This document shows positions 1,349 to 55,862 of a DNA stretch of 64,000 nt, one piece after another. Source of the DNA: Rhizoclosmatium globosum (Eukaryota; Chytridiomycota; Chytridiomycetes; Chytridiales; Chytriomycetaceae); assembly GCA_002104985.1 (NCBI GenBank), contig MCGO01000007.1:682001-746000 (forward strand), read 5' to 3'. Position 1 is the first letter of the stretch, and every line of letters starts with the position of its first letter. The position numbers and the translations under genes were made by a program. The notes beneath the pieces are model-generated. The model was not told the origin of the DNA. It saw nothing but the letters and a program-made list of their open reading frames with translations, and searched no databases.

Positions 1349-1387
1349 ATGAAAGGAAAACCCCAATTTAAAATCCTGCCCATGAAA
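1322..1387 (+). repeat. 33-bp tandem duplication covering the start codon of gene A
   Basis: Copy 1 (1322-1354) and copy 2 (1355-1387) are directly adjacent, 33 bases each, and differ at two positions. Each ends in an ATGAAA, so the gene has two in-frame start codons (1349 and 1382). The second is followed directly by a signal peptide and is the better start. Confidence 0.9.
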
Positions 1388-4300
1388 ACAACGATCGTCT
1401 CTGTTGTAGCCTTGTCTTGGCTCCAATTCGCAGTAGCTGCCCCTGCTAAAAGTGGAGGATACGATTGTACTGACCTCCATAACAAATGGCCTGCTGTTTT
1501 TAGAGACCCATCTAACTGTTGCGACTACTCTGATATCGATTGCAACGGAGCTACGCATTCTACACCTGCGCTGAGTACTGATGATTGTTATATTACCTGC
1601 GGCTCACCGATGCCTTACATCACCCAAATGTGAGTGTGGCTACTTTAAATGTGGTTGTGAATTAACCATTCAATATGTAGTCGCTTGCTGAATTCTAAGC
1701 TACCGACTAACGAAATTCCTGATTTGAGTGTATTCAATGCATTGACGTATGTGTAAGTAAAATCTTCTCTAGGTAGGAAAATGGCGGACTTAAAATATCG
1801 CAATCAGATACATCTATAACAATTCATTCAATGGCTCTCTTCCAACTTCCCTGCCGTTCAACATTCAAGTTTTGTAAGTGTTATATTCTTTGTTATTTCT
1901 CTAAATCTTTCTTAAAGTAACGTGTACAACAACACATTGGTTGGAAATATTCCAGACTGGTCTCGCTACACCAAACTAACGTTATAATCGAAGTTTGCAA
2001 TTTTCACTCATTTCGTCTCCAAAGGAATGTCGAGAGCAATTATCTTTCTGGTTCAATCCAAACATCTTGGCCACCTTCTATCCAAGAAATTCATGTTGGA
2101 TACAATCCCATGATTTCTGGACCCGTTCCGACGTTACCAAACAGCTTAGTTCAGTTGTGAGACGTTTAATTCATTATGTTCTCGCTCTCTTGACATACTG
2201 TTCTCTAGCACATCGGAGTCGACCAACCTCACTGGGACACTTCCGTCCACGTTTCCGCAAACTCTTACTGTTTTCAAGGTGAATGATAACAAAATCGGAG
2301 GCACGATTCCATCGTCTTTCACTTCGTCCAACCTGGCAACATTTCAAGTGGCCAACAATAAGTTGACTGGAGTTATTCCAAGCAAGCCAAGCTCTTTGAA
2401 TACCACGTCAGACCCGTTCGCGGGGCTGAGACTCGAAGGAAATTGTTTCAGTAACATAGCCAGCGTCAATTCTTTGAATCATCTTAATTTCGCCAACAAT
2501 TGTCCTGTGACGGCGTCAACCGTGATGACCACATATTCATCTACTTTACTCGTTTCAACTGTTTCTACGCGTGTATCAAGTGCTCCTACAACTGATGTAA
2601 ACTCTACTGTTCAAACGAGTACATACTTTTCGTCATCGGTTGAAACTACACCATTCAATAGCACGTCTGCTTTAATTGCATCTACAGCAGCGACTACAGC
2701 CTCGACTAAAATTTCAACTGCGGCCGCTGCGTCCACTGCATTTACCAGTACAACCTTCCCAACTACCACGATGACTCCTTTGGTCACGACTAAAGAGTCA
2801 ATCCTAAATACATCGACAATCGGTTCAACGACCCCATCACCAATGGCTTCGTCGACTGCTTCTACCAACAATATTTCGACAGTTGCACCTGTAATGACTT
2901 CATCTTCCGCACCGGCTTCATCTTCTAATCCTCCAATTTCGACAAAGGCCACTACATCTTCAGCAGCTCAACCACCACAATCCACGACTCAGGCTTCGTC
3001 GCCTCTCAGCGCTGATGATATTGCAAACCAGATTGCGGCTGGTCCAATCCCCTCTTATTCCCCTCTCATCCCACTTGATTCCAACAGTGCCCAGGCTGTT
3101 GTTGACAGCTACTCAACTCTACTCGGAAATTCAAACTATCGATTAGAGCCTGTTTCGTTTACAAAATCGTTGGGATATATGCAGGGAACTTTGCAGCCCG
3201 GTTTAACGTTCAGTTTCGCTGGATATCCGTTGGCAGGAAGTTCGCAGACAGGACAAGACCAGAATGGTGCTGCGTATATACTTTCATTCAATCAATATTC
3301 GGTGAGTTGTAATCTTCTTATATAAGTTTCAGTCTGTTCAAAAGTTCCCATCGTTAGATTAATAGTGTGGCAACGTCTTCATCGCGATCGGGTATCTTGA
3401 CAACGTAACGCAAGTGCATTGGAGATATTGCTCCCTTTGGAAATCGCCATTGCAACAGAGTGGATCGGAATGCAATTGTTGGCCAATAGTTCAAATGTAG
3501 TTGTCAGCATCAATACGGGCCATACCTCCCTTAAACTTCAATGTGGCTATATCCAAGTCCGCAAGAAAAAGAGCTGCTGGAATTGCACCCTTCGTTATCA
3601 ATGGAGCTGCACCACTTGTTCCCATTTTCCCAAGGATTATTCCAAACCGACCATTGGTAAATAAGACCCATTCTCCTTTGACTGACCAAGACTTTGTGGA
3701 TATTGCGAAAAGCATCATTGTTCCTGATTGTGCGCGATCTTGTGAATCACAGGTACCTCTGATATTGTGTTAGAAGCATCTAATGAGACACATACAAGAT
3801 TCCAAACTTTGCAGGATTCCGTGAAAGCGCGACTATCCAGACATTGAATTCAACCTGCCAGCTTGTCACTCACTCCACATTCGCGTCGTATGTGTCGTGT
3901 GCCTCTGCACTGCCAGCTTGTCAAGTGCCTGGATCCTTTGGTGTTGCTTTGGCCATAGATTTTGCCGATCGTTTTGAAGTTACTTGCAAAGGTTTATCCA
4001 ACCGACTCCGGATGTCTTGGCAAAGAGCAGAACTCTTGAATTCAATTTCAACAACACTGCAAACCAACAAATTATCAATTTCCAGTTCTCTGTGACGGAT
4101 ATAACTAACACGACAACGTACGCTGGTCTTCCTTACCCAGAATTCAATGATGTGCTTGTTCCACGTGACTTGATCGACTCCGCGCCGCTTATGTACGATG
4201 GATGCGAACCAGTAATTGCTCACATGAAATACGATATCTGTGAAGGAAGCGTGATTGGCAGCAACGTTTGCAACGGAACCTTCACGCCTCACTTAAAGTT

Positions 4301-5069
4301 CCCAGAGTACGATTTGACCCAGATTCCAGGAAGTGGATACGATTCGCAGTCATGCAAAGCGAAACCTGTGGACAATGGAGGTGGACAAACCCCTGTTACG
4401 ACTCCAGCGCTCATCTTGGGTGGTGAAGGTGATAAAGGACAAGGACAAGGACAGAATCCAGTCAAGACCCAATCACTTGCCATTGTGAACGACGAGCCAA
4501 ATTACCCAGCTCAGATTGCGACGGTTGATTCAGGTAACGGAAATACAAGCGGGGATGTCGTTGGACCACGACGTACAGTTGGTTGGCTCACTGAGAATTC
4601 CGGAAAAGGAACCAGTCCACAAACAACGGCAGCCGTTGCGGATCAAGGAAATACGGGAAACTCTCCTGTCACTATTCCAAGCAATCCAGGTACTGGTAAT
4701 CCAGCTATCGCAACTGCGGCTCTGCAAGTTGACAATGGAGGTTCATCTGCTATTCAAACTTTGATTGTGCCACAAGATTCTGGAACACCACAAAACCAAG
4801 GAACGGCTGGGGTAATTGTTTCTCCTGTAAATTCGCCTGGAATTCTTCCCCAAGCAACTGCAGTCGTGGTTGTTCCTGACACGCCGTTTGTCCCTCAAGC
4901 AACTTCAACACGAAACTCAACTCAGTCAGCGTCTTTGACTTCAACGCAAGTGACAAGTGTTGTGACAAATACGGGAGAAGGAAACGCGCTTGGATCAACC
5001 AAATCCAGCGCGTCTAAGTTGAAGTATATGCTTGGGTTATTTGGACTTAGTATTTTGTCATTTTATTAG
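1382..5069 (+). CDS. Surface-protein family gene A: LRR, Ser/Thr stalk, conserved ectodomain, GPI-type tail
   Basis: Predicted secreted, GPI-anchored protein of about 1,110 residues. Exons: 1382-1629, 1681-1752, 1808-1873, 1918-1980, 2025-2156, 2209-3301, 3358-3752, 3799-5069. A signal peptide (MKTTIVSVVALSWLQFAVAA) leads to a plant-type LRR cap (NKWP...NCC...IDCNGA), then LRRs (YIYNNSFNGSLP, NKLTGVIPS) encoded roughly one per exon, with all five early introns in phase 2. A long Ser/Thr stalk follows, then the family domain starting SADDIANQIAAGPIPSY and running through PLEIAIATEWIGMQLL to KFPEYDLTQIPGSGYD, a Gly/Gln-rich linker, and a hydrophobic C-terminus after SSASKLKYM. Three frame breaks (about 3412, 3534, 3989) are inferred by comparison with gene B, so the copy may be decayed or mis-sequenced. 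Function unknown; adhesion or matrix binding is only an inference. Confidence 0.8.
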
Positions 5070-6282
5070 TTGATTTCATGATGGGCCTGTTTTAAGGCAT
5101 TGGTCCAGCCATTAGGAAAAAACGCACAATTTTTGATGCCAGGAAAGTGTCGAGATTGCCAACCCTCTAAACTCCCCCACCACTTGTATGTGCAGCAGCG
5201 CCTTGAGCTTTGGAGAACGTCATCTAATGCAGTGTAGCTATGTAGTCTGGGTGAATAGATTGAGTACAACAGTTGTATTTATTATTTGTTTTCTGCAGTC
5301 GAAGCGAGACAACTGCCAAACCACTCTCATCCACATCAAACTCAGTATTTATCAAGTGACGAATAGCCCGAATTGTCATTGCAATCGCGTTGTTTTGATC
5401 AGTCAAGACAAGCTGGCCCAATGCAATCACCTACACCAAGCGGGTCAGCCTCTTCAGGTTCGCAATTCTGATCGATTCGACGTGCAAGATGACAAGCGGA
5501 CATCGGCAGCATTAGCTTTCTTCGCTTCCTTTGCCTTCTTTGGTGTGTGTCCGGATTTCGACGTCAAAAAACAAAACTACAGAAACGAAATCCGAAAAAG
5601 CGTTCTATAGAAGTTGTAGATGCACTATAAAACTTCGATTTGGGACCATGGATATGTTGATACAATGTGCGTGGCTGCCGTTCTATTCGTTTGCGCGAAA
5701 AAATGCATCAAACTCTATTTTACTCATAAAATCTTACTGCTAGAAACAAAATCAATACTTTCGCTCTATAGAAATTAAAGAACTATGTTTTACCGACATT
5801 TTGAGCCACAATAGACAGTGTTGCGAGTATCTGCCGTCGAGTTCTATTCCGTTGAAGTTTTCAACATTACCTGATTTCAACACTGTTCTCCAACAGAATG
5901 ACACATACTAGCCAGATACCCCTTGTACATATATATTTGCAGGTTACTCATTTCTGTGTTTCTTTTGTTCCTTTACTTCTTCCTTTTATTGGGATCTCAC
6001 AAATCGTGTTTGAGAGAGGCAACCAAAATTGAAAATTTTCTGGCTTCATTTTTTTACTCAACTCTGGACCGATGCCTTAAAAGTGCCAAGACTTTGAATA
6101 AAGAATTTTTTGGGAAAAGTTCATACTGATGAATATATTTGAAGTTTTCAATTTAAATACGCGATATTTTTAGCAAAACTCAAGACAAAAAAAGCGAAGC
6201 TTTAGGAACCATACAGTCACCTAATTTTTTTCTTGAAGCTGATACCATATTGAATGTGGAGATTGGATTGAAGTTGCAAAAA
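5070..6282. other. Intergenic region between surface genes A and B
   Basis: About 1.2 kb without a convincing gene. Short open frames exist on both strands (about 5188-5610 plus and 5224-5430 minus, the latter including IALGQLVLTDQNNAIAMT), but none has a good start, partner exon or recognisable family. It becomes AT-rich towards gene B. It may hold a decayed fragment. Confidence 0.4.
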
Positions 6283-9200
6283 ATGCAGGTTTTGCTCTTC
6301 GCAGCAGCCATTCTCGGGCTTACAGGCAGAGTCTCAGCGAATGTTGCACTCGGGCAACAGTGTGCGAGCAGCTCAGGTGTTTTAACCGGCACTTGTGATG
6401 TCAGCGACACAAATGGCACAATTAAGTGTTTGAAAACATCGTGCTACTCAGTTGGCAATGGTTGCCCATCCATCTGTGGATACAATAATTGTAATACTCC
6501 TGGATATATTGTGGATGCGGCGATGACATCTTGTGTGGTATGTTTGAATGTTGAGTGAGGTTGGAGGCGAACCTCATTCAATTTTGCAGCTCCGGCCCGC
6601 GAACTCTGTTCCACTTGGCGAATCTTGCGCGAATAACTCCCAATGCAAGAACCAGGGCATTCATCTGAACTGTCTCAACAACTTCTGTGGCTGTGACTCT
6701 CCATATGTCGCAAACACTACCTCTGGCTTGAATCAGTGTGATGTAAACTTACCTATCTCGGCGTATATGTTTTCTAATATATCGAGGAACCTACGAACGT
6801 GACCCTTGGCAGTGCCTGTGCTTATACTGCTGATTGCACCAAAAACAAGAATGGAACAACTATTTGCACGCTTAATTCTTACGGCATTCATACTTGCCAG
6901 TTCTCTCAATGTGACTATGGATTTACTCTTTCAAGCAACAAGTTGGATTGCACCGTAAGGCCTGATTGACCAAATCGCATCTAAATACATTAACCATGTG
7001 CGCAGGAATCAACTAACGTTAAAATCGGTAATCATTGTGTTCAAACTGCTGATTGCGCTCTCGGAACAAATGGTAATACTGAGTGTAAATCGGCTCCTGG
7101 GACATCCGCAAATATTTGTCTTTATTCAAAGTGTAACACTGGATTCGGTTTAAACTTCAACAGCACTCTTTGTGTGGTGTGTATTCGCTTTTTTCAAGAA
7201 CCAAAACTCTTTACGTTTGATTTGCAACAGGCAACAACGACAACCACGAGCACAACTTCAACTACCACAAAAACAACTTTGACAACTCAAACGACCGAAA
7301 CTACAGACTGCTCAGACTACTCAGACTACTCAGACTACTCAGACTACTCAGACTACTCAGACTACTCAGGCTACTCAGGCAACAACGTCAAACACCACAT
7401 CTAGGTTCACTGCTACAGCAGTTTCCAAGCTGTCGACTCCCTCTTCGCTCTCAGCTGATGATATTGCAAATGCCATCGCTGCAGGACCAATCCCAACATA
7501 CGTTCCACTCCTTCCACTCTCTTCCTCCATCATTCAAGGCGTTACCAACAGCTACTCGGCGCTTCTCAAAGGTGCCTCATACATAATGGACACAAATGGA
7601 CTGGCTCAATCCTTGGGTTTGATGCCTGGAATCCTTTTTCCTACTCAAACTTTCAGTTTTGCTGGTGTTCCACTGGATTCCTCTGCACTCTTGGGAATTA
7701 ATGGTGTACCTTACATTATTTCTCTTTCACAATACTCTGTAAGTTGATAACGCGTGTTCGACGATATAAGCTCACTGGTTTCTACAGATCAACAACGTCG
7801 TCACGTCCAGTTCTCGTCAAGGTATTTATTCTGACGTCATTCAATTCAAGTGCTTTGCAAATCTTCCTTCCATTGGAAGTCGCGATCTCTGCTCAGTGGA
7901 TTGGAATGCAATTGTTGTCCAACAGCTCAAACGTAATTGTTTCGATCAACAATGGCCACTCATCCCTCGTCAACTTCAACTTGGCCGTTACTTCGTCTAC
8001 TAAGAAGCGAGCCCCTGGTGTGAGCTCGAACATTATTAACGGAGCAGCCGCTCTAGTTCCTTCAACAACCATCACAGGTCCGATTATTCCACCAATTGTT
8101 CCTGACAGACCTCTTGTAAATGGTACACACTCGGCATTGACGGATCAAGACTTCGTGAACAGCGCCTTCGGACTCGTCAAAACGATGACCCCCGTTTGTG
8201 CCAGTTCTTGCGAACCGCTTATTCCAAACTTCCCAGTATTCAAGCAAGATGCATCGATTTCCACACTGAACGCAACATGTCAATTAGTCACTGCTTCAAA
8301 CCTTGCTGATTATTCAAACTGCGCCTCTTCCAAGCCAGACTGCAACAGCCCAGGAATCTCATCGGGTGCTATCCTAGCCAAGAACTTCACTGTTCTCTTT
8401 GAAGATCTCTGCAGACGTTTCATTCAACCAACGCCTGCACTCAACATCAAAAACCGTCAATTCACGTTCACATTTAACAACACCAAGTCCATCAACGCCT
8501 TGAACTTCAAGTACTCTGTCACAGACCAACTTAACCAAACAACGTATGCTGGTCTCGACTACACAGCTTTCCTCACCGACAACTCCCGACGCGATTTGAT
8601 TGACGTGACTCCAATCAACTATGACGGATGCGGGCCGGTTATTACCCACATGAAATACGACGTCTGTGAAGGTGACTTGGTTGGAACGAATGGATGCAAT
8701 GGAAACGTCACCGCGCACTTGAAGTTTCCTGAAATCGATTTGACAAAGATCCCGGGAAGTGGATATGACGATGTTGTGTGTAAAGGGGTTCCTGTGAAGC
8801 CGCCTTCTGTTGCCACTTCTACTCTTGCATTGGACAATGGAGGGGAGCCTGTGGTCCCAATTGCTACCGCGCCTGTCCCTGCCCAGAATACATTGGGTTT
8901 GAGTGTCGGTGAAGCTACTCAACCAGTTGTTCCTGCTACGATGCCTGTTGTTATTAATACAGCCCCTGTTGTGGTTGCGACCGTTGACAGCAGTCAAGGA
9001 TCTGGAAACCAAGGAACTGGTGATCAAGGATCTGGAAACCAAGGCACTGGTAATCAAGGCGCTGACAACCAAGGGTCTGGCAATCAAGGGTCTGATAGCC
9101 AAGCTGTAGTCGCTACACAAGTCCAGGTTCAAGATGTTCCTGTAGTCATTGTTCCCAATCAAGTTCCAGTCATCACTTATCAGACTGTAAACGCGACTGC

Positions 9201-9342
9201 TTCGCAAACCGTATCCGCCAGTACCATTACTCAGATTGCCACCGCTCCTGCTGCTGCAAACTCAACCACGACCAAATCCTCGTCTCCAAAAATGTTCACT
9301 GTCTCAGTTGTTGTTCTTTTCATTTTCGTATCTCTTGTTTAA
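6283..9342 (+). CDS. Surface-protein family gene B: cysteine-rich modules instead of LRRs
   Basis: Same family as gene A with a different N-terminal head. Exons: 6283-6537, 6590-6742, 6787-6954, 7006-7176, 7231-7738, 7788-9342 (about 935 residues). Signal peptide MQVLLFAAAILGLTGRVSA, then four small cysteine-rich modules of the form LG..C....C.........C......C, one per exon, with phase-0 introns. Next is a Thr-rich stalk containing a 9-base repeat coding TTQ, then the family domain (SADDIANAIAAGPIPTY; PLEVAISAQWIGMQLL; KFPEIDLTKIPGSGYD). A linker of SGNQGTGNQG-type repeats and a hydrophobic GPI-type tail (SPKMFTVSVVVLFIFVSLV) close it. Frame breaks at about 7304 and 7822 are needed to join the parts. 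Gene B ends about 240 bases from the convergent enolase gene. Function unknown; extracellular binding is inferred from architecture only. Confidence 0.8.
7304..7380 (+). repeat. 9-base minisatellite coding Thr-Thr-Gln
   Basis: Unit ACTACTCAG repeated about eight times within the stalk of gene B. The frame that joins to the downstream family domain reads it as TTQ. The upstream exon frame reads SDY and hits a stop, so a frame break lies at the left edge of the array, where repeat slippage is expected. Confidence 0.8.
8992..9105 (+). repeat. 15-base-type coding repeat (QGSGN/QGTGN) in gene B linker
   Basis: Imperfect tandem units of about 15 bases encode QGSGN, QGTGD, QGTGN, QGADN. Related Gly/Gln/Asn-rich linkers are present in genes A (GQGQGQN) and C (SQNQNTNNQD), although the exact units differ. 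Confidence 0.75.
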
Positions 9343-9579
9343 CTTTCTTCGTTAACTCTATTTGTGGCTTTTTGCCCCACGTATCTCTTTAACTTACGAA
9401 TAAAGAAAATATGGTTACATTAAGTGAATCAAATGAGTTAAGTGTCATTGATCGAGACAACCTCTTCAGATAAAAAGACAGAACTTAAAACAATAATTAC
9501 AGTATCACCAAAATTCGCCTTTATTATAGAGTTTAAAAACGAGCGACGAGTATTTTTGCAGAATTCAAGATGCAGAGAT

Positions 9580-11192
<1,613 letters not shown>

Positions 11193-11961
11193 TTTTGGGG
11201 GTTGTTTTTCTGTTGCTTTGCAGTTTTCGCCTCCTTTCTTCCCCTTCAAACACGTTTTTCCACTTTGATCCCTTCATTCTCTGTGCACTGACTCACAAAC
11301 ACGTGGCGTGATTCATTTACTCTAGATTATAAATCGCGTAACCATTCCTTCTTAGTCCCACCTAATGCTTCAGATCGCAGAGCTACAACAAGGTCTTTCA
11401 TCGGCGGATTTCGGAACAGATTCCGCCACCGCCAAAACCTCATGGAACTCTCCCGAAATCGCCCGGGGGCACTAAAAGGACAAGTTCCGGACAACTCCGA
11501 TTGCTGTAAACCACATGTCTGGTTTATCCAGGCTCAGTTAAGCTCTTATCAATAATAGGGTAGATAAGGCGAACTCCTCCTTTCTTGCATCACCTCCGTA
11601 TCTTATCAATAATTCATAAACAAGTCTTGTAACTTCTGAATTAGCGAATAGTTAAGTGAGAAGAATCAAAGTCTAGATCCGAAAAGTGGACAAGAACGCC
11701 AATTTCGCTAAAATTCGCGATAACCAATAATTGATGTTGTAACTTATGTATGTTTAACTTATAACAGCTTCATAAATCCTATTAGTTTATAACAGAATAC
11801 AACAACCATGAGGAAGTTAAGTTTTGTGATAGTTTCGACTGAATTCAGACAGACCTCACAGTTGAAAGTAGTTATTTATTGGAAGAAATGCAAAAGAAAT
11901 GCTGAAAGCTTATGATATAGAAAAGTAAAACCCGCAACGGAGTCTGGCTGAACAAATGATT
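11193..11961. other. Upstream region of enolase, no gene seen
   Basis: About 770 bases, increasingly AT-rich away from enolase. A 13-base direct repeat, TCTTATCAATAAT, lies at 11544-11556 and 11601-11613; both copies contain a GATA core (TTATC on this strand). No open frame with coding character. Confidence 0.4.
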
Positions 11962-12171
11962 TTATAGCTTGGCGTATTCCTGATGCTTCCAGTGTGGGAC
12001 GGAACTGTGCGTGCAAGTGGTACAAAGCTGTGCTGATACGTCTTGTTTGAACATCGTAAGACCGTATGGCTCATCTCTTGTTGTTGTTGAGGAGGAACGA
12101 GTGCTGGAGTAGTACGTGGAAGCAGAAGCTGCTGAGAGAGACTGTGATTCGGTATAGCTCTTGGATGGCAT
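11962..12171 (-). CDS. Small hypothetical protein, 69 residues
   Basis: Open frame with an ATG in a reasonable context. The first half is Ser/Thr-rich and the C-terminus is distinctive (CTTCTHSSVPHWKHQEYAKL). It is longer and less repetitive than expected by chance at this base composition, but I recognise no family and see no splice partners. A 218-residue frame over the same bases (11910-12566, minus) has shadow-like composition and was not preferred. Confidence 0.3.
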   Translation of the reverse strand: MPSKSYTESQSLSAASASTYYSSTRSSSTTTRDEPYGLTMFKQDVSAQLCTTCTHSSVPHWKHQEYAKL

Positions 12172-12570
12172 TCTTGTTTGCTTTTTTGGATGGTGAAAGA
12201 CATTGAAGGGTGCATTGAATTGATGCTGCGGGACCCAAAGCAGAAACCGCTTCCGAAGTATTCCGACGAGAATCGTAAAATTTTGAATATGAACTTTTCT
12301 AGAGGCTTTCTTTTCCTTTGTACGTACTTAATTCTTTGAAGAATGTTAGACGGACGGAACTCAAACATGATTCGGTATTTAATCGGCTTCTTAAATGTGT
12401 GGGATCCCAACGTGTCACCAAAACTGGCTGTTTCTCCCCCGCATGATCCGGTATTCTGATGAATCGAATCGGATCTAATATATTTACTGAACGAAAAGAA
12501 GGGTTGTGGCACAAACGACGGGTGACACAACCAAACAAATCGAATCATCCAAAAAGAAGCAAACAACCAG
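12172..12570. other. Intergenic, no gene seen
   Basis: About 400 bases between two weak small frames on opposite strands. Nothing recognisable. Confidence 0.4.
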
Positions 12571-12813
12571 ATGCCATACCTCTTTCCAGTGCCATTTCTG
12601 TACCAGAGACGAGCTAATACTACTCTGAATGCTGCAGCTGGATCAAATTCACTGATTCAGTCTCAAAGTGGGATTGCTACTCCTTCAATGACAACTACCA
12701 CTGCAACACTGCCGTCAGCACCACAGCTTCCAACTCTATCATCTCCTTCGTTTCTGCAAAATCTAAGCTTGGGTTCGCTTGCTAGTGCCGTGGGTGGACT
12801 GTTTGGCCGGTAG
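12571..12813 (+). CDS. Small hypothetical protein, 80 residues
   Basis: Opens with MPYLFPVPFLYQRR, is Ser/Thr/Leu-rich, and ends FLQNLSLGSLASAVGGLFGR. No clear signal peptide, domain or paralog in the window. Could be a real small gene or a chance frame; reported because the region otherwise lacks genes. Confidence 0.28.
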   Translation: MPYLFPVPFLYQRRANTTLNAAAGSNSLIQSQSGIATPSMTTTTATLPSAPQLPTLSSPSFLQNLSLGSLASAVGGLFGR

Positions 12814-13085
12814 CGATTGGTCCATAGACCCAATTTCATCCCTCCTACAACAAAGCACCTCATACTGCATAAACTATTATCTCATACTCTTCTGAGTTTT
12901 CTGTCTATCTCTTCAACCTGGGTTTGTCGATGATCTTATCGACCAATAAATAATGTATAACCGTTTTATTGCATTCAACTCGAACGGAAATCTTTAGCCC
13001 TTATACTTCATTTTCCGTTACGTTATTTTTAGTTATGCATAGTTCAATGTTACTTTTGTTGTCAGTGTGACAAACCAAGACAGAA

Positions 13086-14286
13086 ATGGCCTCAGAATCA
13101 GAATCGCAGTTATCCGCACCACCAACCCACCTCATTTCAACGTCACCGGCCCAGACTTCTCCTTCGTCCGAGCTTCCAATTCTGCGACCACTCGGAAACT
13201 TCCTCCCAAATCAAGCCACTCAAAACGCACAAGACCAACAACGTCGTCTCAGTTTAGTCCTCGCTGCCATCCAAGGCGGAGACCCACTCGATGCGGAACT
13301 CGAAGTCCAACAAAACAGAAAGTGGAAGCGTATCTTTACCCTGCATATATGGTACCATATCCCGCCTAATATGCCCCAAACTATCTGCTAACTGAAGCCA
13401 ACCACATGGACCAGCTACACCCCACCAACGTTCTTTGGCGAAATCATGCCTGATATCCTCGAAGGAAAACTAAGCAACTTTGTGTACACGGCCCGTATCA
13501 AATCAGTCAACCAGGTTCTCGCAGCGCAAAGGAATATTCGCGATGTATCCCACGTATGGAGGAATTCAATCACACTTGTCATGTTGGCTGCGACGATCGT
13601 GACCATGGCTGTGCTCAGGGAACCTGCGTTTCCTATTTACTTTGGCGCGTTGTTGGTTCTGTTTACTGTTTGGGCTTTTGTTCAGGCGTGGGCGGCGATG
13701 GAACCGAAGGTAAGATGTTGGATATTTGGTAGGTACTTGTGTATTGATAGTAAATATGTACAGTACGAACGTGAAATCACAAAGCTTTGTAAATCGTGGA
13801 CGCAGGAAGATACACACCTCCACCTTGCATACCTCTCTCGTCGTTCTACTGCTCCGCGCCCCGTAAATGTCCTTGCAGCACTCAAAACTTCCTTCACTCC
13901 ACAGCAGACAGAATGGTCACTTCAGATATATGAGAGTGTTCCGATATTCCCGATTCGTCAGTTTGGAACTCATGCGGATGATGGAAGTGCTTGGACGGCT
14001 GCGACTATTGATTCTATTGTTGAGAGGGCGTTGCCGCTTTACGTTCCGCGATGGTAACTCCAATACTTCTCGTGAGTGAGTTGTTTTCTTAACCCTGATT
14101 CAAAAAAGGGACGCGACACCGGCTCCAGAATATTGTACACAGTCTCGAGAAATGCAGCAAGTGGTTGGATCGTCTGAGACTCTGGGAGATGAGAGTTCAG
14201 ATGTGAGGAATGAGGATGAAGATCAATTACGGAGGAGGAGCGAAGGAACTGTGACGCTGGTTCCTGGGACTCTGACTCGACCGTGA
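13086..14286 (+). CDS. Two-helix membrane protein E (paralog of protein F)
   Basis: Unrecognised family. Exons 13086-13351, 13415-13709, 13764-14053, 14109-14286 sum to 1,029 bases (342 residues) with every junction in frame. A low-complexity N-terminus precedes RKWKRIFTLHI; EIMPDILEGKLSNFVYTARIK precedes two adjacent hydrophobic segments (LVMLAATIVTMAVL and FGALLVLFTVWAFVQAW). The region after them holds KLCKSWTQEDTHLHLAYLSRR and ends DATPAPEYC plus an acidic tail. The same blocks occur in protein F at 18 kb, so this is a real conserved family. Both ends are probably on the same side of an internal membrane. It converges on surface gene C, 115 bases away. Confidence 0.85.
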
Positions 14287-14401
14287 TTTTAGCAGTGATT
14301 TTAATGAACTGGATCAACTCATTGTATTTTTAGCATTCTGATAAAAAGAAACTTTGATAAGGTATGTTGAAGGTTTCAAACTTTTAAAAAAGCTACTATT
14401 T

Positions 14402-17400
14402 TCAAAAGAGATGGAAAGAGAAAAGGATAAAGACATAGGATATAGGATTCAAGATGGCCGTGTCAGACTTTTTGACAGTTGTAGTTGCAGCAGCGTTTCC
14501 GGCATCGGCGCGTGTAATTGTCGAAGATGCGAAACTTACAACTGTCTTGGAGGTGGCGGTAATGAAGGTTGTTCCCTGCAAAATAACTGGTTGCCCAACG
14601 ATGGGTGCATTACTTGGAACCACACCGATAACTGTGCCTACAGAATCAGACTGGCCACTTCCGGGTTGATTATTTCCAGAACCAATAGTTTGTACTGGTT
14701 GCTGTGTTGGTTGTGGCGATTGACTCGTCGCGAGTATGGCAGTAGGTCCTTGCGCTTGATTCACAAGAATGTCAGAGCCTCCATTCAAAATCGCTGCAGC
14801 ACCTGGAGATTTTGGTCTTGTATCGGTTGTAAGGGGTTGCAACTGAGAAACGTCGCCATTCGAGGAGGAAACGCCTCCAGGAGCCTGAACGCCCCCATTA
14901 CCTGATGTGCTTCCTGTACCATCAACAAGACTTCCTGCAGTCGTTGTAGCTTTTACTTGCTGATTTCCGGATCCACTGTTTGAATTTTGATTTTGAGAAT
15001 CTTGATTATTCGTATTCTGATTTTGGGAGCCGTGACCGTTTCCATTTTGATTTTGAGCGCCCTGACTATTCCCAATCGCCGAAGTAGGTGCAGGAATACG
15101 AGGGCCAGTACTTGGAACAACGACGCCTCCTCCCTCTCCTACATTATTCAAAGAAAGTCCCGACGCTGTAGTAACCACACCACCACCACCACCACCACCA
15201 CCTATAGGAGATGCTTTACACGTCTGCCCATCATAGCCACTCCCCGGAATCTTTGTCAAATCAACTTCAGGATACTTCAAATGTGCCGGACTAAAGACGT
15301 ATGTGCCGTGTTGATACTGATGACCACGTTCGAGTTGTTTGACAATAATTGCATGCTGACCCATTCCGAATCGATTGCTACTTCAAGGGGTAAAAACAGT
15401 TGGAGAGCACTCGCATTATAGGTTGTCAAAATTCCTTGACGCGATGAAGACGTGACAACGTTATTAATCTGGAAGAGAATTAGCGATGCAAACCAAAAAA
15501 AAAATCGACTTACGGAATACTGAGAGAAAGAAAAGACATATACAGCCCCGTTCTGCCCAAACGGTGTTGACGCATTAAGTGGAACAGCAGCGAAACTGAA
15601 CGTCTGACTCGGGTACAAACTTCCAATCATGAGCCCCAGAGACTGAGTCAGTGACAGAGGATCCACTTTGTACAATGCATTTTTGAGTAGGGCTGTGGTG
15701 CTATCAACAACTCGTTGAGCAGCTGCAGCGTCGATTGGAAGAAGCGGGTTGTACGGAGGAATGGCGCCTGCAGCCATTTGGTTCGCGATATCATCTGCAG
15801 AAAACACGCTTGGGATGGAAATTGGCAATGTAGTTGTGGTTACTAAGGGTGTCGAAGATAATGAGGATGCTGGTGCGAGCAATGATGAGAAAGAGGTTGA
15901 AGTAGTTGGTGTTAACAGGGTAAATGAGGCTGAGGAGGAAGAAGTTGTGGATGAAATTTCGGTGGATGTTGTCGCATTATTTGAAGCTGATGTTGAAATC
16001 GAGGAAGCTGTTACAGAAAAACTAGGCTTACTAGTTGTTGTGGCTGTGGTCAAGGAATTAATGGTTTGGGTTTTTGTAATGGTTGTTGTAGTTGACGAAG
16101 TGACCGTCGTCTGGGTTGTCTTTGTTCCTGTAGTAATGGTTGTTCCGCTTGTAGCAGATGTTCCAGTTGTTTGAGTAGTTCCGGTTGTCGCCGTTGGACC
16201 AAGAGCTCCAGTCGTGGTGGTGGCCGTAGTATAACTGGTTCCAGTAGTTGTCGTTGTTTCGGTTCTTGCGGTTGTATCGGTCATATGTGTCGTTTGCGTT
16301 GTTACCGTCGTATCAGTTGTCGATGTTGTTAACGTGGATTGTGTTGTCAACGTTGTCATGGTGGTGATTCTCTATACCCATCTCTTGGCATTAGAGACCT
16401 CTCCCGCCTTTCGAAAACATAACACTTACAACACATATGAAGTGGCTGTACGAATCTTGCTCACGAGTGAATCCGCTATCACAATCATGATTTTGACAAA
16501 CGTTTAATCCGAAAGTATCCGTCTGACAAGTCACCGTTCCATTGATATGTGCAATACAATCTGTGTCGACTGTACAATCGCCTCCAATTCCAACCTTATT
16601 TTGATTAATTCAAGAATCGCAAACAGTAAAGCTCACTGTGCATGTTGTGTTTCCATTTGTTGGGGTTGATCCCGGTGCGTTACAACAAGTAAATAGACAT
16701 TGGAGGGCACCAGACGATGATGCAGCAACACAGTCCACAATACCCGTTGCGTTATGCTGAGCACAATCTGCTTGGGAAGAACACGTGGATGCAATTGGAC
16801 ACGAGTTTTTAAATGTCACACTGCTTGGCCGCGAAAAGCAGTTTCCATCAAATTTGCCTGTTGTCAACGATGACGGCAAGTTCGGAATGGCGCCTGTTAA
16901 TTGGTTGTTTGTTACCTCAAACTGTTTCAAGGAAGAGCTCGAAAACGAGAGTGGGATCGTTCCGTTGAGCTGATTGTCTGTCGCATTGAACGAGACGAGG
17001 TAGGGTGTGTTAAATTCTGGAAGACTGCCAGTGTGTTGGTTCGAGTTGGAGCAGCTGTATGGGTGGCATAACCAGTGTAAGTGCCAGTGATGATATAAGG
17101 TGGGGATGGACTTACAACTCGATAATATTGTTGGGTAGAGGCGGAATTGCGTCGCTCAATGCATTGCAATCAAAGTATGCGTGCGAGGTTGTGAAAGGCA
17201 AAGTGGGGATGGGGCCATCAATCTGGTTTCGGCGGATATCGCTGCACAGTGGAAACCTGTTATCGCTTCAAGTAATAAAGGCGGGGACTTACACGAAAAC
17301 CAGTGTCGTTGGCCACCGACTTAATTGTCCTAGAAATGAGTTGTTGGCTATGATTCTGATGGAAAGGTTAAGAAAGATGAGACCTTTACCACATTATCAT

Positions 17401-17771
17401 CGACTTACAAAGTTGTCAATGAGCCCAAATTATTAAAATTAGGCACAACGCCAGCTGCCAAGTTTGTATTTTGGATCTTACTGTAATTAGGATGAGATGA
17501 ATGAGTGTTTGAGTGTTTTGATCTTGGGATCTCACATTCTGTCAAGTAATCCGTAGCTGTTGCAAGAAACGAAGCAATCATCCGAGTCGATCAAACCGGT
17601 TGAGTTTGAGGCCCCGTTGCAGTCCACTGTGGCTGTAGTGCAGCAATTCGTCAAACTGGTAAACACGGCTGGCCAAATCGAATTCGCCGTGGTACAGTCT
17701 AGGTCTGTTACACCGGCGACAACCATGATCGCACAAGAAAAGATTGCTGCGAAGACGGGTATACCAAACAT
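14402..17771 (-). CDS. Surface-protein family gene C: LRR plus cysteine modules, internally deleted
   Basis: Starts MFGIPVFAAIFSCAIMVVAG (signal peptide; exon 1 is 17771-17536). LRR exons follow (NTNLAAGVVPNFNNL; NQIDGPIPTLP; NQLNGTIPLSF; NQLTGAIPNLP), then two cysteine-rich modules like those of gene B, a Thr-rich stalk, and the family domain (SADDIANQMAAGAIPPY; TSSSRQGILTTYNASAL; PLEVAIDSEWVSMQLL). Directly after SINTAHTSLV the sequence jumps, out of frame, to HLKYPEVDLTKIPGSGYD. About 200 residues present in genes A and B, including most cysteines of the second ectodomain half, are absent. An NQN-type linker and a hydrophobic tail (ISYVFILFSFHLF) remain. It combines both head types (LRR and cysteine modules). 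Probably a damaged or remodelled copy. Confidence 0.75.
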
Positions 17772-17983
17772 TGGTTGTTGGCGTGATTTGAATTCGCCGA
17801 GGTGAAGAAAAGAAATGAGATGCTGGAGAATAAATTGATTAAAATTAAAACAATTAAACAAAGTAACTTTCCTTGTCACTATTTATAATGTCGTATTCGT
17901 TTTATTGATACGAAGCCGAGACTTCCGAACTCTCGTTGCCTTTCCACACGTATGACTCACACTGAAACTCTCCTTTGAAGCAC

Positions 17984-18988
17984 ATGGCGACCTCATCACC
18001 TTCCTCTAATCCAACGCAACACCAACCACGGCGTTGCCATCAGTAAATATGCAAACACAACGGCATGGAAGTTCGCCAGATGTTCGTATAGTTCCAATCT
18101 CACCCAGAATAGTTCAACCATCAAGACAGATCAGTCAGCAAACTCTTTACAGTCAAATACACCACTGGCTCGCAACCCATTCTGTCCAAGATCCAAATAC
18201 AGCCGAAAGCGATAGCAACCCGGAAGGGAACTTGCCTATAACAGCCCCAAACCGGAAATGGAAACGAATTCATACATTGCACCTCCGATACGACTCTAAA
18301 CCGTTTTACTTTGACGAAATCATGCCGGAAGCTCTGGAAGGAAAGATTAGCAATTTCATCTTTTCGTCGAGGATCAAGGAAATCAATGCTATTTTAAACA
18401 ACCAGAGAAGTATTGCGGATCGTTCCAATATATTCAGGAATGGAATCACTGTTGGTCTTGTTCTGATCACGATTCTTGCTTGGCCGCTTTTCTACCGCCT
18501 AGCTTTCCGATGTACTTTGGATGGATTCTTGTTGTATTTGCTGCATGGAGTTTCTTGCAGATTTGGGTTGTTATGGAGCCAAAGGTGTGTGCTTTGTCTT
18601 TGTATTGACTGGGTCTAACTCTATGGGTCAGTACGAGAAGAAAATCAAGAAACTGTGCGAATCGTGGACGCAAGACGATACACACCTTCACTTAGCATAT
18701 ATTTCTCACCGATCTCTTTCGACAAGGCCGAAACATTTATGGATACGTCCGGAGCTTGTATACGCCACAGTTACGGATTGGTACATTTTCATCAACGAGA
18801 ATGTGGCGATTCTTCCTTGCGATTTGTATGGAAGGCATCGAGAAGATGGGAGTGGATGGACTGTGGCGACAATGGGTGATGCTGAAGTACGAGCCTTGCC
18901 TGCATATATCCCAGCATGGGATGCGACACCTGCACCAGAGTATTGTCCCGACACCAGTATATCTATTCCTCTCCAAGAAAAGCAGTGA
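17984..18988 (+). CDS. Two-helix membrane protein F (paralog of protein E)
   Basis: Paralog of protein E. The first exon runs to 18584, the second is 18632-18988. Shared blocks: RKWKRIHTLHLRY, EIMPEALEGKISNFIFSSRIKE, two helices, AAFLPPSFPMYFGWILVVFAAW, VVMEPK at the intron, KLCESWTQDDTHLHLAYISHR, DATPAPEYCPD. The intron that splits W/DATPAPEYC in protein E is absent here. The best start is ATG 17984 (MATSSPSSNPTQ). One base is missing before 18049 and another at about 18479 (T run). If the first break is real, the start would be ATG 18049. Gene F starts 212 bases from surface gene C on the opposite strand and ends 46 bases before the channel gene. Confidence 0.8.
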
Positions 18989-19034
18989 AACTTATAGAAT
19001 CTTTTTCTTTTTTCGTTTGAATTCAATCCAACCA

Positions 19035-21690: not shown

Positions 21691-21811
21691 AGCATCCGCA
21701 TTCTTTTTTCGTTTTCAGCCTTTTTAATTTCTGTTTGATTGTTATTTTACGTTTGATAGTATGTTGCTTTGAAATATGATTGATATATATATTTAACAGC
21801 ATCAAAAAGTA

Positions 21812-25215: not shown

Positions 25216-25298
25216 TGTGTAATAAAGAAAAGAGTAAAAGTATAAATGGATAACTGTATTCAACCTAGTATTAAAAATAACATAATTATTTACTCTAT

Positions 25299-26362
25299 TT
25301 AAGCAGAAGCAGCTGGAGCTGGAACAGGGACAGCAGCAGCAGCAGCAGCCTCCTGCTTCACACGAGTCTCCAACGCCTGGTACAAAGCCGCAGCAACAGC
25401 AGGCCTCTCAACAGATCCAGAAAGAAGTTCCTGCGCCCCAATCACGCGTCCATAAAACTTCTCGTTCTGCTCCTTCCCCTCCATCACCGCAGATCCATCC
25501 AACGACGCACCCGCAAACAACCCCTTCGACTTGGAATACGAAAACACGGGCGACGCGTAGTTCAACGACGCAGAAGCTTCAGCGGATCGGCCCACCGGTC
25601 CGGCAGCTACTGAAAGTGACCCTCCAACCTTGATATCTCCTCCCTGCGAGAACGCCTTGACGGCTTCAACTGTGTTGAGTACCATCACAAAGTCGGTAAT
25701 GTCTCCACCGATTTGGAATCCAACTCCCTGTATCAATAATCAGTTAATTATTATTAGTCATGGAGACACCACAGTCACACCCACACCCACAAACTCACCA
25801 AACCAGCTGTCTTGCAGACATTGGGGCAGACCAGGTTCCATCTTCAAGCTTGGCAATCACGATTCCGGATCCGTAACGGCCACTGATTCCCATCCCTGCA
25901 CGAGCGACTGATATGATATCCAAGAGATAAGTTAAAATTGCTTGTGCCTCCCTACAAAAACACACCTTTCGAAATCAACGCTTACCTTGCAAGATGGCAA
26001 GTCCTTTACACTTGCTGATCACATCCATGGGGATCGTGTTGTCCAGGCCGCCCGTGGTTGGGTCCGGGATGATGAACTGGTTGATGATGGCGGCGGCTCT
26101 TGTGCATTCGCCGGCGTAGTCTTGGTTGAAGACTTGGCCGGATGGGGTTGTTTCCTTTTGATTTGCGACAGCCTGTAGGGAAGAAAGGGGGGTTTGTGAT
26201 GAGTGTGTGTGCTTGAATGTAACGTAAATTGGATGCACAGGTTCAAATGTTTTTAACCTTGTCAATGCTGGCAGATCCCTTTTCGGCAACTTCAGAGATC
26301 TTGGCGCTGACGGTCGTGGCCGCTGCGTTCATCTTGGTGGAGAGCTTGGAGAAGAAGGACAT
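25299..26362 (-). CDS. SYLF-domain (Ysc84/SH3YL1-like) lipid- and actin-binding protein
   Basis: Family members bind phosphoinositides and actin at endocytic sites. Exons 26362-26258 (MSFFSKLSTKMNAAATTVSAK), 26172-25986 (ATTAAIINQF-type block, TIPMDVISKCKGLAIL), 25907-25799 (RAGMGISGRYGSGIVIAKLEDGTW) and 25737-25299 (GVGFQIGGDITDFVMVLNT, GGDIKVGGSLSVAAGPVGR, SYSKSKGLFAGASLDGS). This covers the full SYLF core. No SH3 domain follows; the C-terminus is a short Ala/Pro tail (AAAAAVPVPAPAASA), as in SH3-less relatives. One base appears missing near 25823 (ACCCCAAT-type context), which otherwise disrupts the conserved Cys-Lys-Thr-Ala-Gly stretch. Confidence 0.9.
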
Positions 26363-26528
26363 TGTTGGGTTTTGTTGTGTCTTTGGTTTGGGCAAGCTGG
26401 AAATTCAGATACAAATGGAGATGGGGAAAGTTATCATTTTTGTCAAAGAGCGAAGTATGTGATACTTCATTGAACGAAATACTTTTTTCTTTATACAGGA
26501 TATATATACTGAACGAAAACAATATAAA

Positions 26529-29500
26529 TTACAGAATAATCAAGAGTCCAAAAATGAAATGGCTTATTCCAACACGCATTGCTGTCGATGCTTTGGTAGT
26601 GCTGGCTGGAGTCGATGGAACTATGGCGTTCCCGCCACCAGAGACTGATATTGTTGGATTCGGATAAGATGGTACGTTTGGTCCTTCGCCTGGCAATGGA
26701 TTGCTTCCAGCGGGTTGAAGAGGCTGCGCAACATCTGTTTGTCCACTTGTTGACGTCGTAGATGAAGACGATGGCGTTGATACACTTGACGATGCTCTTA
26801 CAGAATGCGAGCGAATTGGGCGAATTTCGGAGTCGTCGTCACCGTCGTCGTCATCATCAAAGGGACTTTTTGTATTTGCCGTTGGGACTATTGCATCAGA
26901 ATTTAGTGTCACGAATCCGGCGTCAGTCACAGTAGCACTTGATGAAGAAGTCCTCGTTCTCCAATGATGATGCTCCAAATGTGTGATTCTGTTCAAGTTG
27001 ATCTGCCCTTCAGCCTCAGTCACTCTCATCAACCGCGTAGTTTTCGTCAAATCCCCAACATTAAGCTGACCTCCGCTCAAACTCGAAGTTCGAGTCTTTG
27101 GGGTTCTAGTCCATTGTTCAATGGTAAAGGAGAAGTCGTTGCAGTTTTCGTGACTTTGGAGGAACCACACGTTGCCTCGTCGAATCCGCTGTCTGGGATC
27201 TTTGTTGGATCTAAAACTTGTGTCTTCAAGTGTGCTGTGACAGTTCCGTCACATTGATTGTCGATAAGGAGTGTTCCGTCGCATACTCCGTATTTCATGT
27301 TCACTGTGACTGGATCGCAATCTGGGAAAGTGAATGATGTTGAATTGAAGACTTTTAAGTCTCGACGGCGGCTGTTGAATTGGGAGAAGGGGGTTCCAGC
27401 GAGTGTGTTTCCGTATCGATCCGTGATGGAGAAGTCGAATTCTATAATGTTGAGGTTCGCAGGGATGTTGAAGCTGAATGTGACTGTTTTGTTTCGAGCA
27501 GAGACTGTTACGATGGGTGATGGTTGGATGAAACGTTGGCAGAGGTCGGCGAGGAGAGCAGTGAAAGTGTTTGTTTGGTTGAGGCCTTTTTGACACGAAC
27601 TTTGGAGTCAACACAGTCACTGTATGCTTTAGGATAGTAGGGGTGACTTCTTGACACGTTGCATTCAAGGTATCCACTGACGCGTTTCGTTGAAACAAAT
27701 TGAAGTTAGGGATCTGACATGTGAAAGTTAGTATTCTTCATAAGCTCACAACATTATCTTACAAGGGATGGACACGTATCAGTACATGGAGGACCATATT
27801 CTGAACGAGTGCTGTCGCGTTGTTTACAAAATCTTGATCGGTGAGCGCGATAGTTCCATTGACCTTTGGACGATTCGGAACGCTGGTTGGAATGGAATTT
27901 CTCATTGAAGTGACAATCATGGTTGTTGTAGTAGAAGTAGCTGTGCCGTTTGTGGAAGAGCCTGGATTCGGTACTATAGTAACCGGAGCAACAGTGCCTG
28001 GAGCAATGGGTACATTCGTGGTACCTGGAGCAACAGGCACACTGAATGTGCCCCGAACAACAGACACACTAGAAGTACCAGAGCCAACAGATTCGCTCAC
28101 AATGACTGGACCAGCAGACGCCGTTGGAACTGAAGTCCCAATGGGCGCCGTATTATCAGCGATTGTGGAGGTTACAATTGGGCTCGATACACTAGCAGAA
28201 GTAATGGGTCCAACCGAATTCACAGTCCCAGTTCCTCCATTACTCGTTCCACTTGCCACCAAGCTTTGAAATACAGTCGCAGTTGTCAACACAGTCTGAC
28301 CACCAGCCGAGCTCGTCACAACAACACCACCAACAACCAGAGGAACCCCGCCACTCACAGCCGTCACCCCAACATCTCGTTTCTTTCTCCCACCAACTCG
28401 CGATGACACATCCATGCTGAAAAACGCGAGCGATCTGTGTCCAGAGTTGATTCCGACAACAAGGTTCTTGCTATCTGGTGAGACTTGCATTCCAACCCAT
28501 GTGCTTGTGATTGTTCGTTCAAGGGAAGGAATACTTCAAGTGCTGATTGTGTGTTACTGGAGAGGACGTCTTGAGGGGGCTGGATGCTGATACTTTGGAT
28601 ATCTACAAATCGATGTTAGGTCGAATAAGGGTAAGAAGGGTATACCGTGTATTGGTCGAACGATATGAGAAAACTGCTCCATTTCTTCCTGTCTCCGATG
28701 TCGCAGGTAGAGACGCAGCAACGAAGCTGAACGTCACGCCTGGTTGCAGCGAGCTAACTAATTGGCCCAAAGATTGTGTAAGAAGCGTCGAATCAAATGT
28801 GAATGATGTGCCGCTGATTAAAGAGGAGAATGCATCAACAATTTTTTGACGTGCTGAATCTGGAACGGGTAAAGAAGCTTGTCAGTTGGAATTTCTCCAG
28901 CCGCAATAGATGCTGCAACATCCGATGCGTTAAAAGGGGGGTTATTGGAGGAGTAAATACAGTCGTTGTTGTTGTGGATGACTTTGCGGTAGATGATGTT
29001 GTTGTTGAAGTGGTTGATAATGCGGTCGCGGTGGACTTTGTTGTTGATGATGTCGACGTAGATGTTGTTAGATTTATTGTGAATTTTGTAGTTGTGGAAG
29101 TGGTGGTGGTGTTTACCTTCGTGATTGTGGCAGAAGTTGAAGAAGTTGAAGAAGTGCTGGTTTCAGCTGTTGTCGATGAAGTTGTTCCTTTCGTACTCGT
29201 TGTAAATGTACTCGAGGAAGTTTCGTTGATGATGTATCACTCGTCGTAGTTGTTTGCTTTGAAGTACTTGTCGTCGTTGTTTCCTTTGAACTACTCGTCG
29301 TTGTACTTGATGTTCTTTCTGTGGACGACGTATTACTTGTAGTAGTTGTCATTTTTGAGGTACTCGTCGTCGAACTTGACGTTGTTTCTGTGGAAGACGT
29401 TCTGCTAGTAGTCGTTGTTATTTGTGAGGTACTCGTCGTTGAGCTTGATGTATTGCTCGTAGTAGTAGTCGCCTCTGTCGTGGTTGTAGATGAACTTGAT

Positions 29501-30521
29501 GTCGTTGTATCTGAGGTTGTTGAGCTCGATGTAGTCTTCATCGTTGAAGTGGTCGTCGTACTAGTAGTAGTCGTCGTGCTTGTGTAAGAACAAGATCCCT
29601 GATTCACAACTCCAAAGGACCACGCGTTTTCAAAGCAGTTCCCATTCAAATCATAATTCGGTAGAATTAGCGATTCAGGAAATGGAGGTATCACGCCATT
29701 CATTTTGTTATCGGCAAGACGAAGGGAACTCAGTTGTGTAGGTAGGGGGCTGGGGATAGGTCCTTCGATTTTGTTGTTTTCCGCGGAACTAGACGGAGGG
29801 CATTAGAATATCAACGGTTGAGGATATCCAACATACAATACGAGTAAATTTTCGGGTAGGTTTGGAAGATTCCCATTTAGTTGATTGTTTGAAAAGATCT
29901 GTATTCAAGATGATGAGAAATGTCAGCTTGAGATGGATAAGGGGTCCAAGCAGATTTTTTAGAGTAAATACGAACGCGAAAGTTAGGGTTTCAGGAAGAG
30001 GTGGTATAGGCCCTGATATTGAGTTTTTACTTAAGTCGCTACGAGATTGGGTATTGGGTATTAGTAAATGTGTCTTGTTGTTCAATACGACTCACAGCCA
30101 AGCAAGAGCCGGTGGGAGACACGTTGGCATATCGCCTCCAATCTGGCTATTGCGCAACTCTCTGAATGCGGGTTTAATACGGCATGTTGGATACAAGGAA
30201 CACTCACAGTTTTGTGAGTTTGTGAGGCTGCTGAAGTCCGGCATTGAGAGTTTGCACGTTAACGGATCAGTCAGGTCAACCAGCGAACTGCGCAACGAAC
30301 GGGTCCTTAGGCTCTTCCACTACCAACCAAGAACCAAGTACGATGCCACTAACATGCTCGTGATGAAGCCATCGCCATCGCACTCAACATACTCGCAGCA
30401 CGCTGTCTTATCATAAGACGGAAAGAGAGGATCGTACGGGAAGGCTCTCGAGCTAGGCGCAATCGGGCGTTGGAACCGGACAGAAGATTGAGACGACATA
30501 GCTCCATATGATGTTGACCAT
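26529..30521 (-). CDS. Surface-protein family gene D: LRR, long Ser/Thr stalk, diverged ectodomain
   Basis: Fourth member of the family. The start ATG 30521 gives a signal-like MVNIIWSYVVSIFCPVPT, then a cysteine cap (TACCEYVECDGDGFITSM), LRR exons (RNSQIGGDMPTCLPPAL; KNSISGPIPPLPETL; ADNKMNGVIPPFPESL) and a very long Ser/Thr stalk (about 29600-28980). The family domain is diverged (SDVAASIAAGEIPTDKLL; PGVTFSFVAASLP; VGMQVSPDSKNLVVGINSG). An extra Thr/Ser/Val-rich insertion sits before NRPKVNGTIALTDQDFV. The second half has NLNIIEFDFSITDRYGNTLAG and a hydrophobic tail (GISHFIFGLLIIL). Numerous single-base frame breaks interrupt it (near 30475, 28880, 28670, 28535, 27795, 27650, 27585 and 27100), so exon limits are approximate. 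It lies head-to-head with nothing close; the Rmd1-like gene J ends 164 bases upstream of it. Confidence 0.72.

Positions 30522-55061: not shown

Positions 55062-55862
<801 letters not shown>

Follow-up and report, generated by a model that had tools for sequence, protein, structure and literature searches.

Four large genes of Rhizoclosmatium globosum, a free-living, water-dwelling chytrid, lie within bases 682001-746000 of contig C388 (64,000 nucleotides, hereafter the window) and raise the question of what kind of protein they encode. A sequence-only reading had described them as surface proteins of the glycosylphosphatidylinositol (GPI) type that combine interchangeable N-terminal heads with a bipartite ectodomain, the two halves of which are termed here D1 and D2. 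The genes are found at 1382-5069 (A) and 6283-9342 (B) on the plus strand, and at 14402-17771 (C) and 26529-30521 (D) on the minus strand. We consider it fairly likely that they belong to a modular cell-surface family of Rhizoclosmatium, in which exchangeable heads are mounted on a D1/D2 chassis that ends either in a GPI-like anchor or in a transmembrane helix with a SAM-like tail (TM-SAM).

Organization of the four genes

All four genes possess Ser/Thr-rich stalks, linkers and uncharged hydrophobic C-termini. The heads are those proposed earlier, with leucine-rich repeats (LRRs) in A, C and D and cysteine modules in B and C; signal peptides (weak in gene D) and these cysteine modules were judged by eye, and GPI-like ends by hydropathy. 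Pattern searches place the W..MQ motif in every gene (3461, 7897, 15349 and 28485), as they do the IP[GD]SG[YF]D motif (4323, 8749, 15230 and 27179). The motif that opens D1 was recovered in A (3008), B (7451) and C (15801), and in a diverged form in D (near 28907). The bipartite ectodomain is shared by three of the genes, as had been claimed for all four, but gene C is without nearly all of D2. Nor are the genes single clean frames: in addition to introns, A, B and D display frame shifts inside domains, unlike their relatives.

The heads reside in the same genes as the ectodomain rather than in separate ones. In gene A, a single open reading frame (ORF), 2150-3322, extends from the last LRRs through the stalk into the beginning of D1. 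The annotated protein P0009 combines LRRs and a stalk with the greater part of D1, the D2 end and the tail. The sequence of P0008 (BCR33DRAFT_531849 of R. globosum) corresponds to the stalk and D1 of gene C.

D1 and D2 are recurrent modules without a named family

D1 (about 185 residues) opens with the SADDIAN motif and closes with a conserved strand (IINGVSPL or similar) that directly follows a basic stretch; D2 (about 230 residues) is bounded by the LTDQDF segment and the GSG[YF]D motif. Ten cysteines are found in D2 of the subfamily that includes genes A, B and C, several of which are absent from some distant rows. The genome searched comprises 56.9 Mb in 420 contigs, and match counts are given at the exon level, with alleles and separate exons each counted. 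An ectodomain query retrieved 60 matches at E<=1e-3, far beyond chance, while 59 were obtained with D1 only and 34 with a D2-TM-SAM query. Three protein searches, with candidates limited to 8000, 8000 and 7410 by shared exact words and similar length, gave 6, 8 and 1 relatives (9 different proteins), all from Rhizoclosmatium, which does not show absence elsewhere.

Both halves of the ectodomain recur, but not as one unit. In the stretches read, locus L033 has D1 copies and no D2 match, the order is reversed in L035, where D2 is located ahead of D1, and two D2 copies each were seen by eye in L028 and L041. In L043, L045 and L047, likewise as read, D1 lies near a hydrophobic end and no D2 is seen. 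Judged from these arrangements, D1 and D2 are independent modules, in place of the single bipartite domain first described.

The absence of a named family for the ectodomain stands: at the curated Pfam cut-offs, none of 21 D2 rows and none of 13 D1 rows matches any family, and no PDB match was found by sequence for either module. A doubtful though real possibility is that the two modules have known folds, and function accordingly, but have diverged beyond the reach of sequence searches; candidates are a GAIN-like pair, or Ig-like sandwiches combined with a helical CFEM-like domain. In AlphaFold models, the six-helix first half of D2 reaches a predicted local distance difference test (pLDDT) value of 73-89 by blocks of ten, and the strands in the second half 52-66 (9 rows, P0003); values for D1 are about 48-73 (8 rows, P0008). 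The helical half of D2 resembles CFEM (PF05730) as a small helical cysteine-rich domain, but contains 6 cysteines. The CFEM domain has 8 cysteines. Against known folds speak the Pfam result and the profile searches of the genome, in which CFEM and GPS do match, but at other places: 22 CFEM loci and 6 GPS (PF01825) loci were listed, none of them a D2 locus when coordinates were compared, and neither profile was found among the 21 D2 rows. Foldseek likewise returned no structural match for the models at E<=0.001; the GAIN domain of latrophilin-3 appears in the list at E=0.073 with a probability of 0.12, from a weak model. Ten loci of this chytrid genome pass the CFEM cut-off.

Heads differ among closely related genes

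Across the family, the heads are of many kinds. LRR_1 (Pfam cut-off 20.6 bits) is matched in L012 (33.2 bits), L021 (21.9), L025 (33.3) and P0009 (36.9). Other heads above their cut-offs are Ephrin_rec_like in L044 (43.3 bits against 23.1), a GDSL lipase/esterase in L043 (25.6 against 23.6, in a frame adjoining that of D1), an S28 peptidase in L047 (57.4 and 51.1 against 25) and DUF3472 in L045 (139.5 against 24.8). A mannanase-like head in L033 matches PDB entry 4qp0 (E=3.6e-8). A ricin-type lectin in L045 and CFEM in L046 remain under their cut-offs, and the GH18-like (L028, L041) and jelly-roll-like (L022) heads are readings by eye.

The tandem cysteine modules of L012 gene 2 resemble CPL1-like (PF21671), which they match in 4 stretches at 24.1 bits, below the cut-off of 27.4; this cut-off is passed at two paralogous places that are probably alleles. 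Unlike the CPL1-like module, the cysteine modules here are one of several heads on D1/D2, and the window's own are without a CPL1-like match, one of the gene B pieces giving EB at E=0.12. Genes rich in cysteine modules at L018 (8339-9460) and L019 (3611-4963) show, by eye, an extra shared stretch (D3) between D2 and the hydrophobic end. At L010 (4376-6373), the stalk is built from a short acidic repeat unit that includes DATDDPN and occurs 14 times.

It is extremely improbable that these combinations are gene-model artefacts, in which neighbouring genes were fused by the reader into heads, chassis and tails. The genes contain many introns and were read without RNA, but in gene A, L041, L044, L045 and L047 one ORF encodes a head together with all or part of a chassis module, and P0009 is annotated as one protein. 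The single ORFs join Ephrin_rec_like to D1 (L044), DUF3472 to D1 (L045) and the S28 peptidase to D1 and the tail (L047); that of L041 holds, by eye, the GH18-like head, a cysteine module, the stalk and the start of D2.

A tree of D2 (20 rows; 8 of 17 inner branches strongly supported) contains three mixed-head clades. One (support 99/100) unites genes A (LRR), B (cysteine) and C (both), another (99/97) L021 (LRR) and L022 (jelly-like), and a third (100/99) the second D2 copy of L028 (GH18-like) and L036 (LRR). Because well-supported D2 clades hold different heads, heads were exchanged, as had been proposed from the window; the exchange is clearer genome-wide than within it. At least 8 head changes are required on the tree, with 6 for LRR presence, 5 for cysteine-module presence and 1 for anchor type, numbers that will move, the other branches being weak.

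Two kinds of C-terminus

Two kinds of C-terminus are present in the family. Those of genes A to D are GPI-like, that is uncharged and hydrophobic with no tail behind: 0-3 residues follow the best 15-residue hydrophobic stretch, and no charge occurs in the last 8. The same hydrophobic end was found in 13 of 13 scored non-TM tails, a chosen sample. A GPI-like end, in line with the anchor proposed earlier, is seen in the window genes and most members read, but not in a clade of three genes. For L012 gene 1 with its copy L023, and for L022, the ORF of D2 runs on into a hydrophobic helix, then basic residues, then a tail of the cytoplasmic type; in L012 and L022, the strong hydrophobic stretch and the basic residues after it were seen by hydropathy. 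L012 gene 1, L021 and L022 form one well-supported clade with a presumed TM helix and a SAM-like tail, and two of the three (L012 gene 1 and L021) have LRRs above the Pfam cut-off. A further copy of L012 gene 1, on C388, is matched over the same length by the D2-TM-SAM query.

Alone, the SAM-like stretch of L012 scores 15.2 bits for SAM_Ste50p (cut-off 21) and 13.9 for SAM_PNT (cut-off 24). The tail of L012 is 31% identical over 175 columns to that of L032, which passes the SAM cut-offs (SAM_2 25.4 against 20.5; SAM_PNT 24.5 against 24), and the SAM assignment for L012, L021 and L022 is thus a putative one by homology to L032. Because the outer part of L032 is different, this type of tail has likewise been joined to more than one kind of outside. 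A short PLF-like motif recurs by eye between the membrane and the SAM-like stretch in L012 (3370-3972), L021 (2948-3523), L022 (2910-3758) and L032 (3249-4034). SAM_2 has 54 genome matches at E<=0.1, with clusters at C24:117260-206538 and C103:24796-45438 that are apparently allelic and contain candidate further receptors.

Of 33 hits that extend to the end of D1, 27 have an adjacent basic pair close to it. Alleles are among the 33, and at least 2 of the 27 are to be discounted, L008 with its shifted frame and L019 with a pair off the site. The six D1 ends without it are the second gene in L043, two copies in L033, and the TM-SAM genes L012, L021 and L022, where the absence counts as one event because the three form one clade. 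Kex2-type cleavage at this dibasic site may be guessed at.

Haplotype comparison and frame damage

Window positions 1-17751 align with C411 and 25444-32272 with C80, at 94-96% identity in long pieces and 87-88% in some short ones. In gene A, identity to the C411 allele falls to 61-76% over the head (1355-2254), a sharply bounded region, against 94% before it, 90-93% over 2255-2735 and 95% after. The C411 allele still codes for a signal peptide and LRRs. A diverged allelic head would fit a recognition surface, and relaxed constraint or allelic recombination would look alike. For 5097-8658, which includes most of gene B, the C411 stretch has no close counterpart save 6077-6323 (76%) and short paralogous pieces. 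Modules are also gained or lost between haplotypes: the window copy of gene C lacks a stretch of about 0.8 kb at 15288/15290, most of D2 included, and retains only the last 24 profile positions of this module, which is kept in the copies on C347 and C411.

The window copies could also be read as decayed, as pseudogenes of a once-working family: D2 would have gone from C, and the reading frames would have broken down in A and D. The internal deletion in C agrees with this, as do the frame-changing small indels between haplotypes, of which A has 11, B 16, C 10 and D 23 against 1 in enolase; the changed side is not told by these counts, some indels lie in introns, and the count for B covers only its aligned 3' part, where indels are clustered and partly alignment noise. 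The alignment of gene D, however, has 23 single-base gaps in the 3686 bases of the gene itself and a higher density, 38 in 2836 bases, in the sequence around it. The GH31-like gene at 33080-35130 also switches frame, by eye without an evident intron, which suggests small assembly indels, and other copies in the genome have longer frames (L011, L014). Frame breaks in many copies may be assembly errors or decay; as an account of the window genes, decay is unlikely.

Comparison with known systems

In a survey of 49 fungal species (PMC2939053), five LRR receptors remained at the end, and no other functional domain was present in any of them. An LRR receptor was defined there by at least one LRR domain at the Pfam threshold and a single transmembrane helix. 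The LRR part of this definition is reached by L012 gene 1 (33.2) and L021 (21.9), and not by window genes A, C and D. L012 gene 1 further resembles such receptors in its hydrophobic helix (by hydropathy) and cytoplasmic tail, and L021 is similar, but with its helix split between frames. Differences are found in the tail of the TM-SAM clade, which is SAM-like instead of a kinase or TIR domain, and in the stalk, D1 and D2 between LRR and membrane; the window genes, which have no helix followed by a tail, fall outside the definition. The putative joining of an LRR head to a SAM-like, signalling-type tail is an arrangement not reported in the 49-species survey (PMC2939053).

Als and Flo are fungal GPI-anchored adhesins. 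The family shares with them a signal peptide, an N-terminal head, a Ser/Thr stalk and a hydrophobic C-terminus, but its heads are of the LRR, cysteine-rich or enzymatic kind, and near the membrane it has a folded unit of two modules. A likeness to Eph receptor tyrosine kinases is seen in the Ephrin_rec_like repeats as a head (L044) and the SAM-like domain inside (TM clade); these two features are in different proteins here, however, there is no kinase, and the likeness need not mean descent. Titles and abstract starts of the literature searched yielded nothing on this D1/D2 family or on chytrid LRR-SAM receptors, and the main text of the R. globosum chitin paper (PMC12115818) does not contain leucine, receptor, adhes or GPI.

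A probable chassis for display at the cell surface

The order of modules, read from outside to inside, is a signal peptide, a head that would bind or cut, usually a presumably glycosylated Ser/Thr stalk, at least one D1 and/or D2, and the anchor. Because the head varies while D1, D2 and the anchor stay, the head is likely to do the specific work, and D1/D2 to hold and present it as a membrane-proximal chassis that would keep the head off the surface. In most members read, the chain stops at a hydrophobic segment, which would serve for attachment as in GPI-anchored proteins. In the TM-SAM genes, the helix and the SAM-like cytoplasmic domain, which could recruit partners, might relay binding inward. 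New surface proteins would arise when a new head is placed on an existing chassis. We infer expression, GPI attachment, glycosylation, ligand binding and signalling, and in the same manner adhesion and any role in zoospores.

The modular family of the surface type suggested earlier is supported, but the role in recognition or adhesion proposed with it is too narrow: several heads of the wider family are enzymes, so a general function in display is proposed instead. For the same reason, it is improbable that the proteins are adhesins only, GPI-linked to wall or membrane and used like yeast Als and Flo, with the TM-SAM genes as a minor offshoot without signalling. The Ser/Thr stalk and hydrophobic end of all four window genes, and the uniform ends of the 13 scored tails, are what adhesins would have. 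The wider family, on the other hand, has enzymes among its heads (GDSL esterase, S28 peptidase, mannanase-like), and the TM-SAM end is common to three genes of one clade.

Several points weigh against the modular family with two anchors that we prefer. The LRR scores in the window (A 18.6, C 14.1, D 12.8) are all under the LRR_1 cut-off. Genes A, C and D are damaged or misassembled in this haplotype, and the only R. globosum model met in the searches for window genes, P0008, covers part of gene C. The structure models are weak except for the helical half of D2. SAM scores are below the cut-off in L012, L023 and L022, and no match was obtained in the tail exon of L021, which looks alike but has its membrane helix split between two frames. 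Every copy of L012 gene 1 is broken as read: L012 and L023 shift frame in D2, at different places, and the copy on C388 (L020, C388:765901-770500) is without about 0.67 kb holding D1 (near 754), which is present in C80 and C278.

R. globosum grows on chitinous remains (PMC12115818), and contact with and feeding on particles, e.g. such remains, is the presumed setting of the family. We propose tentatively, and at somewhat short of an even call, that GPI-held tools and single-pass LRR-SAM receptors stand on one home-grown chassis. Sensing by head exchange would then have evolved independently and would match the layout of plant and animal LRR receptors. Allelic heads would have diverged as under diversifying selection, and the loss of the dibasic site in the TM-SAM genes would keep one chain for the inward relay, with the GPI forms being cut. 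The D1/D2 family would offer a concrete, testable set of proteins for chytrid surface biology, with two new domains to name, and its head exchange, diverged allelic head and module loss between haplotypes a system for watching receptor repertoires evolve.

Feature coordinates and neighbouring genes

Table 1. Features of genes A to D, in window coordinates
Feature	Position	Strand	Basis
Gene A head: signal peptide, LRR N-cap-like cysteine segment, plant-type LRRs over several exons	1382..2520	+	reading frames; LRR_1 18.6 bits, below 20.6
Gene A Ser/Thr-rich stalk	2521..3007	+	ORF 2150-3322, joined to last LRRs and D1 start
Gene A D1, two exons, end near dibasic site	3008..3585	+	profile matches; near-identical P0004; exon junction as in P0008
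Gene A D2, one intron and frame breaks	3651..4364	+	profile matches; P0004 continuous across
Gene A Gly/Gln/Asn linker and hydrophobic C-terminus	4365..5066	+	ORF 3978-5069; hydropathy
Gene B head: signal peptide, about four cysteine modules (by eye)	6283..7180	+	reading frames
Gene B Thr-rich stalk, short tandem repeat, frame change within	7228..7450	+	reading frames
Gene B D1, two exons	7451..8040	+	motif pattern, profile match
Gene B D2, unbroken reference copy	8101..8787	+	456.6 bits, itself one of two profile seed rows; alignment A6
Gene B linker and hydrophobic C-terminus	8788..9339	+	ORF 7702-9342; best 15-residue hydropathy 2.89, nothing after
Gene C head: signal peptide, N-cap-like cysteine segment, LRRs, two cysteine modules (by eye)	16450..17770	-	LRR_1 14.1 bits, below cut-off
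Gene C Thr/Ser stalk	15802..16371	-	inside annotated P0008
Gene C D1, end cut short, one intron	15289..15801	-	259.7 bits, profile positions 1-157 of 174
Gene C internal-deletion junction, about 0.8 kb, most of D2	15288..15290	.	relative to C411 and C347
Gene C D2 remnant, linker, hydrophobic C-terminus	14405..15287	-	ORF, profile, hydropathy
Gene D head: signal-peptide-like start, N-cap-like cysteine segment, LRRs, frame breaks	29570..30521	-	LRR_1 12.8 bits, below cut-off
Gene D Ser/Thr stalk	28910..29569	-	reading frames
Gene D D1, frame breaks	28350..28909	-	profile; allele L014 has D1 in longer frames
Gene D D2, frame breaks	27167..27883	-	161.1 bits for ORF 27080-27607
Gene D linker and hydrophobic C-terminus	26532..27166	-	ORF 26529-27248; hydropathy

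The remainder of the window contains further genes. A similar pair of membrane-protein-like genes lies on either side of gene C (13392-14057 and 18010-18988, by eye), and another pair of similar genes (30685-31676 and 35418-36197), which we take to be DUF155/RMND1-like, flanks the GH31-like gene. Three RING-finger-like genes are located on the minus strand (51153-52043, 55062-55862 and 56469-57149), and transposase-like frames with a DDE-type look are found in two pieces at 52191-54888. Two successive ankyrin-repeat-like frames follow at 58594-61001; these last three readings were also made by eye.

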